Shown here: piece after piece, positions 57,965-62,362 of the stretch | Numbering within the stretch: the first letter of the stretch is position 1 | Layout: each line of letters opens with the position of its first letter | DNA from: an uncultured Saprospiraceae bacterium | Lineage (GTDB): Bacteria; Bacteroidota; Bacteroidia; Chitinophagales; Saprospiraceae | DNA length: 64,000 bases | Assembly (NCBI GenBank): GCA_937934275.1 | Contig: CALHAM010000087.1 | Span: forward strand, 1-64,000 | Direction of reading: 5' to 3' | Translations under genes and position numbers: made by a program | Notes under the pieces: model-generated | What the model was told of the DNA's origin: nothing | The model's database searches: none | The model's input: the letters and a program-made list of their open reading frames with translations, nothing else

Positions 57965-57972
57965 TACCTTTG
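57965..57972 (+). promoter_or_regulatory. Bacteroidota -7 box for purF
   Basis: TACCTTTG, a full TAnnTTTG match. The start site is expected near 57979, a leader of about 27 bases before the ATG at 58006. No TTG is at the standard distance upstream. Confidence 0.5.
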
Positions 57973-58005
57973 TGCACCCGCCGAGGCAACCGACCACCCT
58001 TCTCG

Positions 58006-59907
58006 ATGAGCGACCTAATTCACCATGAGTGTGGCATCGCCATAGTGCGATTGCTCAAGCCACTCGATTTCTATGTAGAAAAATACGGCACAGCCTTCTA
58101 CGGCCTGCAAAAGCTCCAGCTGCTGATGCAGAAAATGCGCAACCGCGGCCAAGACGGCGCAGGGCTGGCAGTCATTAAACTGCATCCCAAACCTGGCGAG
58201 CGCTACATCAGCCGAAAACGCAGCAATACCCCCAATGCCTGCCTGACCCACCTGTTTGAGATGGTCTGGGGGCGCATCCTCCAACTCCCACCCGAACACC
58301 TAAACGATGTGCCCTGGCTCAAAAGCAACGCCCCTTATGCCGGTGAAGTGCTGATGGGCCACTTGCGCTACGCCACCCACGGCGATAATAGCATCGAGCA
58401 GGTACACCCTTTCCATCGCAAAAACAACTGGATCAACCGCAATCTCATACTGGCCGGCAACTTCAATATGACCAACGTGGACGCACTCTTTGAAGAACTC
58501 GTCGAACTGGGCCAGTACCCCAAAGAGAAGAGCGACACCGTAACAGTATTGGAAAAAATAGGTCATTTCTTGGACGACGAAATTCAACGCCTCCACACGT
58601 GGTACAAGCCCGACGGCTACACGAACCAGGAGATTAATCAACTCATTTTCGATAATTTAGATATCGCACGTCTGTTGCGCCGCGCCTGTAAAAAGTTCGA
58701 TGGCGGCTACGTGTTAGGTGGTCTTATCGGACATGGCGACGCCTTTTTGCTGCGCGACCCCAACGGCATTCGGCCCGCTTACTGGTACCACGACGACGAA
58801 ATTATCGTGGCCGCTTCAGAACGCGCAGCCATCCAGACGGTCTTCAACGTTCGCTACCATCAGGTAAACGAACTGAAGCCCGCCCATGCCCTCATCATCA
58901 AATACAACGGCACCTTTAGCGAACAGCCCTTCGCGGAAGGGCGCGAATACCGCGCTTGCTCTTTCGAGCGCATCTACTTTAGCCGTGGCAACGACCGTGA
59001 AATTTATCAAGAGCGTAAAAAACTCGGTGAGTTCCTGGCGCGACCTGCCTTAGAAGCCGTCAATTTTGACATCGACAATACCCTTTTCTCTTTCATCCCA
59101 AATACCGCTGAAGTAGCCTTTCAGGGCCTCGCCGAAGGCCTCAACCGCGAACTCAACTCTTGGAAAGAGGAACAAATCCTGCTGTTGGCTGAAAGCGGCG
59201 AGCTCACTCCTCAAAAGCTCCGCGAGATCCTTGACCACCGCCCGCGCGTTGAAAAACTCATTCACAAGGACGACAAACAGCGCACGTTTATCGCCGACGT
59301 CAAAAGCCGCCACAGCATGGTCAGCTACGTTTACGACGTTACCTATGGGCTTGTGCGCAACGGCCAAGACAACCTCGTGCTCTTAGACGACTCCATCGTG
59401 CGCGGCACAACGCTGCGCGACAGCATTGTCAACATTGCGGCCCGGCTTAATCCGCGCAAAATCATTATTCTATCCAGCGCACCTCAGATTCGCTATCCCG
59501 ACTGTTACGGGATCGATATGAGCAAAATGAAGGACTTTGTCGCCTTTCAGGCACTCCTCGAATTGCTCCACGAAACCAACCAAACCCATCTCATTCAGGA
59601 GACCTACCAGCGCTGCAAGACTTCCGAGAGCCTACCGGTAGAGATGGTACAAAACGAAGTCATCCCGCTGTACAACCATTTCACCTATCAGGAGATCACC
59701 GATCGTATCGCTAAAATCGTAACGCCTAAAGACATCTTGCCCGAAGTGCAGGTGATCTTCCAAACGTTGGAGAACTTGCACAAGGCTTGCCCGAAAAATC
59801 GGGGCGACTGGTACTTCTCAGGGCGCTATCCTACACCGGGAGGCAATCGAGTGGTTAATCGGGCTTTTATCAATTTTGTCGAGGGCCGAGACGAGCGGGC
59901 CTATTGA
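58006..59907 (+). CDS. purF: Amidophosphoribosyltransferase (long Bacteroidota form)
   Basis: 633 residues against about 470-505 for classical PurF. The glutamine amidotransferase domain begins after the peptide MSDLIHHE, so C9 in HECGIA is the likely nucleophile after removal of the short leader. MRNRGQDGAGLAVI and GHLRYATHGDNS fit the class II glutaminase fold. The phosphoribosyltransferase part shows NLVLLDDSIVRGTTLRDSIV, the PRPP loop. It catalyses the first committed step of purine synthesis. Extra segments lie around residues 75-105 and 230-330. A catalytic or regulatory role for the extra parts is unknown. Confidence 0.88.
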   Translation: MSDLIHHECGIAIVRLLKPLDFYVEKYGTAFYGLQKLQLLMQKMRNRGQDGAGLAVIKLHPKPGERYISRKRSNTPNACLTHLFEMVWGRILQLPPEHLNDVPWLKSNAPYAGEVLMGHLRYATHGDNSIEQVHPFHRKNNWINRNLILAGNFNMTNVDALFEELVELGQYPKEKSDTVTVLEKIGHFLDDEIQRLHTWYKPDGYTNQEINQLIFDNLDIARLLRRACKKFDGGYVLGGLIGHGDAFLLRDPNGIRPAYWYHDDEIIVAASERAAIQTVFNVRYHQVNELKPAHALIIKYNGTFSEQPFAEGREYRACSFERIYFSRGNDREIYQERKKLGEFLARPALEAVNFDIDNTLFSFIPNTAEVAFQGLAEGLNRELNSWKEEQILLLAESGELTPQKLREILDHRPRVEKLIHKDDKQRTFIADVKSRHSMVSYVYDVTYGLVRNGQDNLVLLDDSIVRGTTLRDSIVNIAARLNPRKIIILSSAPQIRYPDCYGIDMSKMKDFVAFQALLELLHETNQTHLIQETYQRCKTSESLPVEMVQNEVIPLYNHFTYQEITDRIAKIVTPKDILPEVQVIFQTLENLHKACPKNRGDWYFSGRYPTPGGNRVVNRAFINFVEGRDERAY

Positions 59908-59944
59908 GCCACAAGCGGAGTGCACTGCTTGCGTTGCACCCAAT

Positions 59945-59978
59945 AAAAAAGCCCGCTCCCTTCTTTTAGGGAGCGGGC
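59945..59978 (-). terminator. Strong terminator hairpin with T-run on the minus strand
   Basis: GCCCGCTCCC (59951-59960) pairs perfectly with GGGAGCGGGC (59969-59978) around an 8-base loop. On the minus strand TTTTTT follows directly; on the plus strand no T-run follows. It therefore fits best as the end of a minus-strand RNA coming from 60262 and beyond. It could also act on purF as a T-run-independent terminator. Confidence 0.8.
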
Positions 59979-60118
59979 ACTCCTAACTTATGGAGTTTGA
60001 ATCCCCCGCCAAGGTTACTCTTTTTTTCAATTGAATTTTGGGGCTGGTTTTCTGGGGCTGTTTTCACTGGGTCGGTCGGTGGGACATTAGCCGCACACAA
60101 TAGCACAACAAGTAATCG

Positions 60119-60262
60119 GAACGCAGGGACGGCCCACAAAAAGTCAGTGGAGCAGCCTACGGAAGTTTCCCCGGTTTGTAGGGAGGTATCCGTGATACCC
60201 GCACCGCTGACGGCGTTCATTAGGTGAGTCAAAAGGGCGGGTATTCGCCGAGCGAGGCCCGC
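60119..60262. ncRNA. Candidate structured RNA region
   Basis: Nested pairs: GAACGC (60119-60124) with GCGTTC (60213-60218); GTCAGTGG (60143-60150) with CCGCTGAC (60204-60211); inside these, CCTAC (60156-60160) with GTAGG (60178-60182) and GGTATC (60185-60190) with GATACC (60194-60199). A separate hairpin, GCGGG...TCGCCGAGCGA...CCCGC (60237-60262), follows. The shape is a multi-branched RNA on either strand. The minus strand is followed by the terminator at 59945-59978. No match to a known RNA family was recognised. Confidence 0.4.
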
Positions 60263-60613
60263 TGTTTTCGATTGGCTTTAAGGGGTGGTACCCGTGGGCA
60301 TCGCAGCTTCCCTTCCGCGAACTACCTCTCGGTGGTGTTTTTGGGCGAGAACAGCATGAACAGAACTACTTTCAAAGAACCTCGTTTTCGTTGGTCTGTG
60401 CGATGAGGGACGAGGGAGGGGTTGGTAGTTGCAAAAAATACACTTTGCTTTGGCCATCGGCTGCTGGTGGGATAATTTCGCCGCAGGTCAGGCTTCACGG
60501 TCGTTTGATGACACAAAAGTGGCCCAGATGCCCTCAGGTCGGCAAACACGAAAAAGCGCTTAACTTCCACTGTGCTCCTCCCGGGAGCATCTGCCTTGTT
60601 CGGTTGAAATATT
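60263..60613. other. Spacer before the 582-residue protein gene
   Basis: No open frame here has coding-like composition. A near-consensus plus-strand box TACACTTTG (TAnnnTTTG, about 60439-60447) is the only promoter-like feature. Confidence 0.3.
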
Positions 60614-62362
60614 ATGCACGAAAGCCCATTAGTCCGCACTTTACAGTTGCTTACCTCGGAAGAATTGGACGATTTAGAAAAGTTCGTAGGCTCGCCCATC
60701 TTCAATGAAACCAATCGCTTCCACGACACGGTGCGCTTATTCGAGTATTTGCGCCCTCACTATCCATACTTCAGCGATCCAGCACTGGATAAGACGACCG
60801 CCGGTCGGGCGCTATTTCCCGCGCGCAATCAACCTGAAAACGAGCTGGAGCGCACAATGACCCAGTTGATGCGCGTTGTCAAACAATTCATCAACTTTCG
60901 CTATTCGGCCGTTCGAGGTGGGCGCGCCGTGCGCAGCGGACGCAAGCAAAACGTTTTGCAAGACTCCGTTTCCTTGCTCAACTTCGCTCGCCAACAGTTA
61001 GCCTTGATGCGCTTTTACAGCGAACGCCTGCTCCAAAAACCGGCGGATTTTCCAAAAAATATCGTTTCCGAACCCAAGCCGGAAGGCAAAAAGCGACGGG
61101 TGAAGCGCGCAGAGAACTTCTTCCGTCACCTCTACGAGGAATTAAGGGAGGCCCTGGATACCCCTCAGCGCTTCGACGGTTTTGAGGAATACGAGTTTAG
61201 CGATTTCTACTACTTCCGATATTTAGCCGAACAAGAAAAAGCGATTTACGAAAGCCTGCACGAGTGGTCGGCCCAGGGCGGATTTACCAATTTACTAACG
61301 GCCACCGAACACCTAGATCGCTTCTACCTACTGAGCAAGCTCGACCAGATGTGCCGACTGTTGCACTTGCAGCAGATTGCCATGCCCTTTGCTGAAAACT
61401 CGGGAGAGTACCGAAGGCTCATGCTGAACCAAACGCTGACGACCAAGATGGTCAAGCTGCTGATTAAGAACGGCTACCACAACGAAGATCCCAGCATTGA
61501 GATGTATTTCACACTCCTACAGATGCTGGTCAAGAAAAAGCCCGAAAAGACAGATGCCCTAGCCGAGCGGTTCTTTCAGCTGTTGCGGCAGCATACGGCC
61601 ATAGTGCCGAGGCAGCGCTTTCGCGATTTCAACGTTATGGTGCGCTCCTACTGGACGCGCCGCTACCGACAAACCCGCGAACGCCGTTTTTTGGAGCAAA
61701 TCTTCCTATCGCATCGGGAAGATGTGGAACAAATGCGCCGCAACAACGAAGACATTCAGAGCTCGCATTTTCAGAGTATCCTTTCTAGCGCTATCAAATT
61801 AGGCCATTTGGAGTGGGCCGAAGCCTTTTTGCAAGCGTTTACCCCGCGCATTACGGCTACGCCCGAGCCGCAATTAGTGGCTGATATTGCCCATGCCATG
61901 CTCGCCTTTGCGCGCGGGCAGTACGAGCAAGCGGCTCAACGCCTACCCCACTACTTTTTATACGGCACCACCGACGACCCAACGCTGTATGCGCTGGCTG
62001 CTACGCTCGATATGCGCATCCGATACGAGCTGGGCACGCTCTTTGACGAAGAGAGCATGAATATGCGTCGCGCTACCCACAAGCGCATCAAAGAGAACAA
62101 GATGCTGCTGCCCGAGCGGCGCGCCAGTATTTTGGGTTTTTACAACGCTGCTGTACAGTTGTTCCGTCAGAAAGAAAGGCTAACCCTGCGCTCTGCCCAG
62201 CCCGAACAGGTGCGCCGCGAAGTGGAGCGCGTGTGGAACGACTTAGAGACGGCGCCAGTAGTAGACAGCGAATGGCTGCGCGACAAATGCCGCGAATTGC
62301 TCGCTCTGCTGCCTGCTCAACCGCCTAAAAGACAGCCCGGCGGAGGCCCTCTTAAGCTTTAA
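60614..62362 (+). CDS. Conserved hypothetical helical protein
   Basis: A 582-residue protein with no signal peptide or membrane helix. It is strongly helical and charged, with pairs of long amphipathic helices that look like alpha-solenoid repeats. The N-terminus (about 10-75) shows LTSEELDDLEKFVGSPIFNETN and ALFPARNQPENE, which I recall as a motif in Saprospiria hypothetical proteins, though with no assigned role. A Lys/Arg-rich patch lies at about 155-175 (EGKKRRVKRAENF). Nothing identifies a catalytic site. Its stop overlaps the aldolase stop by four bases in opposite direction (62359-62362). Confidence 0.68.
   Translation: MHESPLVRTLQLLTSEELDDLEKFVGSPIFNETNRFHDTVRLFEYLRPHYPYFSDPALDKTTAGRALFPARNQPENELERTMTQLMRVVKQFINFRYSAVRGGRAVRSGRKQNVLQDSVSLLNFARQQLALMRFYSERLLQKPADFPKNIVSEPKPEGKKRRVKRAENFFRHLYEELREALDTPQRFDGFEEYEFSDFYYFRYLAEQEKAIYESLHEWSAQGGFTNLLTATEHLDRFYLLSKLDQMCRLLHLQQIAMPFAENSGEYRRLMLNQTLTTKMVKLLIKNGYHNEDPSIEMYFTLLQMLVKKKPEKTDALAERFFQLLRQHTAIVPRQRFRDFNVMVRSYWTRRYRQTRERRFLEQIFLSHREDVEQMRRNNEDIQSSHFQSILSSAIKLGHLEWAEAFLQAFTPRITATPEPQLVADIAHAMLAFARGQYEQAAQRLPHYFLYGTTDDPTLYALAATLDMRIRYELGTLFDEESMNMRRATHKRIKENKMLLPERRASILGFYNAAVQLFRQKERLTLRSAQPEQVRREVERVWNDLETAPVVDSEWLRDKCRELLALLPAQPPKRQPGGGPLKL

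Follow-up and report, generated by a model that had tools for sequence, protein, structure and literature searches.

A candidate long RNA gene in a Saprospiraceae genus, with an internal protein frame present in some species and absent from others

The window analysed here is a stretch of 64,000 nucleotides from an uncultured Saprospiraceae bacterium (assembly GCA_937934275.1, contig CALHAM010000087.1, positions 1 to 64,000, forward strand), whose genome we call G000. Between a gene for a purF-like class II glutamine amidotransferase and a gene for a 582-residue protein lies a spacer of about 700 bases, the length that an earlier note on this DNA had given. The glutamine amidotransferase product scores 114 bits, far below the purF cut-off of 350. 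Homologues of the 582-residue protein occur in 52 of 60 relatives, with many paralogues in some genomes, and they appear to form an uncharacterised expanded family.

The same note had proposed that the spacer encodes a structured RNA on the minus strand with its own terminator, a proposal now supported by a putative promoter and a terminator that are both conserved, by constraint on the sequence and by predicted pairing that is kept in relatives. The terminator is where the note had placed it: an 11-pair stem at 59978-59951 is followed by six T at 59950-59945, and no shuffle out of 200 folds as well as the minus strand of 59940-59990 (z -5.6). Terminator-like sites as such are not unusually frequent in the region (2 found in 59300-61000, 2.0 expected); the window terminator stands out by its strength and conservation, not by site count. 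The nested inverted repeats noted at 60119-60218 are present too, and the minus-strand fold of 60138-60218 reaches z -3.2, with 1 of 200 shuffles as good, compared with z -1.8 and 10 of 200 for the plus strand. Their arms are short and imperfect, and the general repeat finder listed a lone 16-nt pair at 59887/60255. The inner helix (60211-60204/60150-60143) is retained in relatives, but the outer GAACGC/GCGTTC pair is not. The hairpin reported at 60237-60262 does exist, with a more stable fold on the plus strand (z -3.7) than on the minus strand (z -2.4), and it is partly deleted in the relative G010. An 88-residue minus-strand frame at 59966-60232, slightly lipoprotein-like, was rejected as a gene, lacking a start and running into early stops in G035 and G010.

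The candidate promoter came to light through the comparison of relatives, a sigma-70 promoter scan being uninformative. The segment 60568-60514 on the minus strand is sharply conserved, and the pattern GGAAGTNA-N11-GTGTTTG-N21-CANCTTTG recurs in relatives at fixed spacing. Promoters of the primary sigma factor of Bacteroidota carry TTTG at about -33 and TAnnTTTG at -7, and transcription in Flavobacterium starts 4-5 nt past the -7 box, according to excerpts of two reports (PMC7366714, PMC6847099). GTGTTTG and CANCTTTG resemble these two elements: the window has TTTG and xAnnTTTG at 21-nt spacing, with C instead of the first T of the -7 box. Because starts lie 4-5 nt past that box in Flavobacterium, we infer a start near 60509 and an RNA of about 565 nt, which would make the length first suggested, about 330 nt or longer, too short. 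Further upstream, the conserved box listed in Table 1 is a possible site of a regulator.

Table 1. Features of the spacer and its two neighbouring genes, in window coordinates.
Feature	Position	Strand	Basis
Gene for a purF-like class II glutamine amidotransferase, convergent neighbour	57970..59907	+	Gene call, profile score
Putative RNA gene, ~565 nt, from the inferred start to the end of the T run	59945..60509	-	-7 box and terminator; conserved in G035, G018, G010
Intrinsic terminator, 11-pair stem (9 G-C) and U6	59945..59978	-	Fold; a single compensatory change (C-G to U-A) in G010
Small hairpin ACUCC-N8-GGAGU just 5' of the terminator	59979..59996	-	Identical in all 4 rows extending that far
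UGAAAAC, the sole UGARARC site of the window RNA	60060..60066	-	Strand-specific motif
Central hairpin (the nested inverted repeats of the earlier note)	60143..60211	-	z -3.2; kept in relatives
Hairpin UCGCGG-AAGGGAAG-CUGCGA in the most conserved block	60301..60320	-	6 pairs, standard in 5/5 rows
CACTTTTG, -7-like promoter element	60514..60521	-	5/6 near-invariant TAnnTTTG positions; C replaces the first T
GTGTTTG, -33-like promoter element	60543..60549	-	Comparison of relatives; Bacteroidota consensus
Conserved GGAAGTTA box, about -59 to -52, upstream of the -33 element	60561..60568	-	Fixed spacing GGAAGTNA-N11-GTGTTTG in relatives
Gene for a 582-aa protein without Pfam match, divergent neighbour	60614..62362	+	Gene call, Pfam search

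The window spacer finds a strong match in four of 60 relatives (G035, G018, G010 and, in pieces, G019) and some match at E 0.1 or better in 14. In the minus-strand alignment of the copies the conserved blocks run from the promoter to the terminator. The hairpin at 60301-60320 is almost invariant in sequence, with one A-U to G-U change; the central hairpin is kept in G035 and G018, has its inner half re-registered in G010, and has counterparts in other clades. Over the five rows of the window clade, 92.9% of the pairs in four helices are standard, against 38-49% when the partner is slid, a control that favours the structure because the structure was derived from those same five rows. As to covariation in relatives, which the earlier note had named as a check, both partners differ in 4 pairs, compared with 1.3 in shuffles, and the further pair types show no excess (9 against 9.3). 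Separately, at 1300-1540 of locus L024 in G019 we find three copies of the AACCTTGGCGGGG block, compared with one in the window, and UGAAAAC sites between the copies, apparently a case of local repeat growth inside the RNA.

We use the term unit for the putative promoter, the RNA and the intrinsic terminator taken together. Allowing at most two mismatches, all of 12 chosen genomes contain the promoter pattern once or twice, and its reversed control is found 0 times. At three mismatches it is found in 33 of the 42 genomes of the genus, and some of these sites must be chance since the control pattern also matches, once in each of 6 genomes. Across 298 genomes of the order, again with at most two mismatches, 7 of the 8 genus members match, as do 5 of the other 290 genomes, each once at two mismatches, where 3 control matches were seen. 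The exact pattern is present in 20 stretches of a collection of 84,980 species, each ascribed to these genus genomes. A unit could be assigned in 30 of the 42 genomes, all of them with a promoter site at no more than one mismatch, and in 10 of the 12 genomes outside this set there is either nothing close to the pattern or a three-mismatch site at best. G009, where the site lies beside a different gene, and G004, with a one-mismatch site on another contig, were not counted as units. A simple terminator scan found a terminator in 24 of the 30 units, that of G022 being weak and set aside. The six units where the scan found no terminator are those of G026, G031 and G061, and those of G018, G033 and G062, the last three being truncated by contig ends; in G018 a terminator is present on the second contig. 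The 582-aa gene lies upstream of the unit and divergent from it in 28 of the 30 genomes (0.6-2.5 kb examined), at a distance of about 1 kb in G007 and G013. It is not beside the unit in G061 and G019, and G019 has it on another contig.

Additional copies of the unit or of its promoter pattern were observed in several genomes. Two near-identical incomplete unit copies with different neighbours lie at contig ends in G018 (L138 and L139, contigs C103 and C136), and they may be either a real duplication or an artefact of assembly or strain. The promoter pattern is doubled, as a tandem or at short distance (0.3-2.8 kb apart), in G001, G017, G026, G061, G021 and G029 (L090, L096, L134, L126, L133 and L082/L094). 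A second locus with a similar pattern, at 1-3 mismatches and often with GGAAGC, was seen in G016, G033, G064, G028, G060, G020 and G009 (L124, L125, L127, L128, L131, L132 and L109). It follows what we take to be a GroEL-like gene in G016, G028, G060 and G020, and in G016, G020, G033, G064 and G009 it precedes the gene of a related protein that looks secreted and contains 'VGGGCFQISNV'. The pattern may mark a small regulon.

Of the 30 units, 13 also contain a conserved open reading frame of about 130 codons, the copy in G033 being cut by the contig end. The alignment of its product has 21 invariant columns in 11 rows, and the protein has no match in Pfam (three sequences tested) or NCBIfam (one tested). 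AlphaFold2, given 5 rows, returned an all-beta model with a best pLDDT of 85.7 (39-82 for the other four models), and nothing in the PDB matched the predicted structure in a fold search at a threshold of E 0.001. By profile search the protein is found in 13 of the 42 genus genomes, at the units, with one weak partial match elsewhere in G007. A genome-wide profile search that reads through stops finds none in the 17 unit genomes without the frame (G000 included), and none was found in 120 sampled genomes of the family, a sample that held two genus members lacking the frame and no positive control.

The tree of the 582-aa protein served as the trait tree (30 rows, 29 of them labelled; G061 has no row and G004 no label). 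On this tree the presence and absence of the frame need 5 changes, 4 of which are forced by well-supported branches. We read the five changes as repeated loss of the frame, in the clade of G000 together with G019; in G029; in G030-G005-G015-G034-G027; in G001-G017; and in G016-G028-G020-G060, although the direction, loss or gain, is not proven by the tree.

The stretches of RNA on either side of the frame persist in sister units that lack it. In clade A, the frame-bearing G064 and G033 share with the frame-less G020, G060, G028 and G016 a near-invariant 5' hairpin domain that contains a three-way junction, and G064, whose contig continues, also shares blocks with these sisters on the other side of the frame. 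A model built from the frame-less G001 and G017 matches both flanks of the frame in G026 (E 1.3e-30 and 1.8e-13). RNAalifold places a long helix in clade A that is almost invariant and, taken alone, uninformative about covariation. Hairpins with differing arms, spanning 59-122 nt and mostly with CCUG...CAGG at the base, are predicted outside clade A in 11 units from six lineages; such a hairpin was not established in G007, G022, G062, G029 and G061. The clade A model matches the hairpin of G008 and G006 (E 2.4e-6), of G063 (0.0025) and of G021 (0.0079), with weak matches in G031 (0.31) and G015 (0.36), and it does not find the hairpin of the window. When the best single stem of each unit was set against 8 shuffled controls, it came out ahead for only some of the units. 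When the arms were swapped, 1 and 2 of 40,320 permutations were as good, a result that is illustrative only and biased upward because the arms were picked for pairing.

A more quantitative view of constraint is obtained by comparing the body, i.e., the unit without promoter and terminator, to the four-fold sites of the 582-aa gene. No body value is available for G018, where contig ends cut both copies. The body is more alike than the four-fold sites in 13 of the 14 pairs of genomes without the frame, for example 372/511 against 104/207 for G000-G035, 299/500 against 78/187 for G000-G010, 397/465 against 43/152 for G020-G016, 382/463 against 63/171 for G020-G028, and 531/560 against 116/199 for G027-G034. 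The exception is G035-G019, where the body, at 236/520 (0.45), falls below the four-fold sites, at 84/172 (0.49). Gapped alignment to shuffled partners yields 0.42-0.45 in the nine pairs so treated, and the real body is higher in 9 of 9, G000-G019 reaching 0.49 against 0.42. Body values near 0.5 (0.49 for G000-G019, 0.53 for G029-G019) nonetheless mean little because shuffled partners already give 0.42-0.45.

This comparison bears on the possibility that the unit is simply an mRNA for the 130-aa protein, its UTRs being long and regulatory and the frame-less copies being decaying relics behind an old promoter. The frame is indeed the best conserved part of the unit across distant clades, and between distant genomes without it the likeness of the bodies comes near the floor set by shuffling. 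However, closer sisters without the frame are far more alike in body than at four-fold sites, as the G020-G016 values illustrate, their hairpins are conserved, and several separate lineages retain the promoter without the frame. We consider decay of this sort unlikely. It might also be that the frame-less units are mRNAs of other proteins, very short or fast-changing. A 33-codon GTG frame near the 3' end of the window RNA (60066-59966) is intact in both G000 and G035, and a frame of 57-60 codons is open in G001 and G017. Yet no frame of at least 20 codons keeps its start, frame and stop in all frame-less members of clades A (4), B (5) and 0 (3). G010 has a frame shift in the 33-codon frame, and where G000 and G035 differ within that frame the amino acid is mostly changed, as read from the alignment, which leaves this explanation distinctly improbable.

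The units also share a short motif. TGARARC occurs 51 times in the 9,688 nt of sense strand of 16 frame-less units against 2 times on the other strand, copies within a clade not being independent, and 13 times in 4,045 nt of UTR and 0 times in the frames of 7 frame-bearing units; in 34,207 nt upstream it is found 6 and 14 times on the two strands. Sites of the form ACC-N(1-3)-UGARARC are repeated in several clades, the clade of G000 has 1-2 copies of UGARARC, G000 itself one and G029 none. In predicted folds the sites are about as unpaired as similar 7-mers (0.577 against 0.553, p 0.25), which lends no support to the idea that they are exposed for binding; the role of the motif in the argument is a supporting one only.

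The bias of the motif toward one strand is relevant to whether the conserved element instead works on the plus strand, as a leader or promoter region of the 582-aa gene. Such a role would fit the adjacency of that gene in 28 of 30 genomes, the hairpin at 60225-60275 that folds better on the plus strand, and a weak terminator-like site at 60321-60336 (+). The promoter-like elements and the strong terminator, on the other hand, face the minus strand, as does UGARARC with its 51 against 2 occurrences, and the unit of G019 is not next to the 582-aa gene at all; we find a plus-strand role very hard to sustain. A cis-regulatory leader on the minus strand, either riboswitch or attenuator, was also considered and dropped, the next gene after the terminator being convergent, with none downstream on the same strand.

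The earlier note had seen no tmRNA, RNase P or SRP motif, and had named an Rfam search as a check. Rfam 15 gives 0 matches at the gathering threshold in the window, and 0 in 20 unit loci of relatives, and ARAGORN finds 0 tRNA or tmRNA genes in the window. A loose Rfam scan of the spacer lists five weak matches, and the highest-scoring one covers the terminator alone. The RNase P RNA of this genome (RF00010, 224 bits, over the cut-off) is on another contig, C12. The OLE, ROOL and GOLLD families are in Rfam, and none of them matches in the window or the 20 unit loci. Some known classes are of similar size (in part from PMC12286853), so one may think of a divergent copy of a housekeeping or other large RNA (RNase P, tmRNA, SRP, 6S, OLE, ROOL or GOLLD). 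Against the lack of any Rfam match at the gathering threshold, the absence of a tmRNA from the window and the presence of the RNase P RNA elsewhere, this hardly seems credible.

The explanation we favour, and consider probable, is that the spacer holds a stand-alone minus-strand RNA of about 565 nt, which would be the RNA-only form of a genus-wide dual-function RNA of the SgrS type that acts in trans. The unit would then consist of a dedicated promoter, the RNA and an intrinsic terminator, and some sister species in addition encode the protein of about 130 residues from a frame that has a structured 5' part of the unit before it and a conserved 3' part after it. The frame is missing in about five lineages, that of G000 among them, which nevertheless retain the promoter and much of the RNA body, as well as the terminator in units where the scan detected it. 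That the promoter and body are kept where the frame is missing argues that the RNA part most likely has a function of its own, as in SgrS homologues without SgrT. Acting in trans, the RNA may use its hairpins and exposed segments to bind a protein or pair with target mRNAs; candidates for this are the central hairpin with its apical region and, for the several clades that repeat them, the ACC-N(1-3)-UGARARC sites. A regulator that reads the GGAAGTNA box could control the RNA, and the protein, where present, may serve the same task as the RNA.

More tentatively, and with somewhat less than even confidence, we suggest that an mRNA has here turned into a noncoding RNA several times, the 130-aa frame being an optional insert lost about five times within one genus. 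If this is true, what selection retains of the gene is the RNA, and promoter and RNA structure have outlasted the frame. Sister species with and without the frame constitute a natural series, which lets one ask which part of a dual-function transcript selection keeps. To our knowledge, few noncoding RNAs are understood in this phylum, to which the unit would add an RNA gene absent from Rfam.

Among the papers listed in searches of an open-access library there was no report of this RNA of about 565 nt. We regard it as a new RNA gene that falls within a general kind already known, the long regulatory or dual-function RNAs. Titrating RNAs of the CsrB/RsmZ type carry a short motif repeated on one strand, with GGA in loops. 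The units resemble them in the one-stranded repetition of a short motif in several clades, but the motif here is UGARARC, and in the clade of G000 there are only 1-2 copies. The intergenic GibS sRNA of Bacteroides is likewise a Bacteroidota RNA with conserved promoter and terminator, but it is 145 nt long, largely unstructured and without a protein, as excerpts of its description have it (PMC7366714). OLE, ROOL and GOLLD are also long, structured and poorly understood bacterial RNAs; ROOL and GOLLD are phage-linked in the portion of the source at hand (PMC12286853), whereas no phage context was seen for the window unit. VcdRP of Vibrio cholerae is, as proposed for the unit, a dual-function RNA with a small protein, but that protein has 29 residues, the organism is unrelated and no series of losses was seen (from extracts of PMC8672173).

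The closest parallel is SgrS/SgrT of enteric bacteria, which has a conserved promoter region and an intrinsic terminator, and whose Yersinia form lacks the protein frame and keeps the RNA (PMC4021124, in part). In both systems a single RNA gene contains a protein frame that is absent in some species while the RNA persists, a likeness of kind and not of homology, the sequence relation having been checked through Rfam only. By sequence the unit has its own promoter and terminator, and it encodes a conserved protein in 13 of 30 members, the window's copy not among them. SgrS, as excerpted in the same source, is short and its protein has 43 residues (PMC4021124), compared with an RNA of 500-1000 nt and a protein of about 130 residues with a predicted globular fold in the present case. 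It is in the size of this optional protein, and in its repeated absence, that the unit is unusual.
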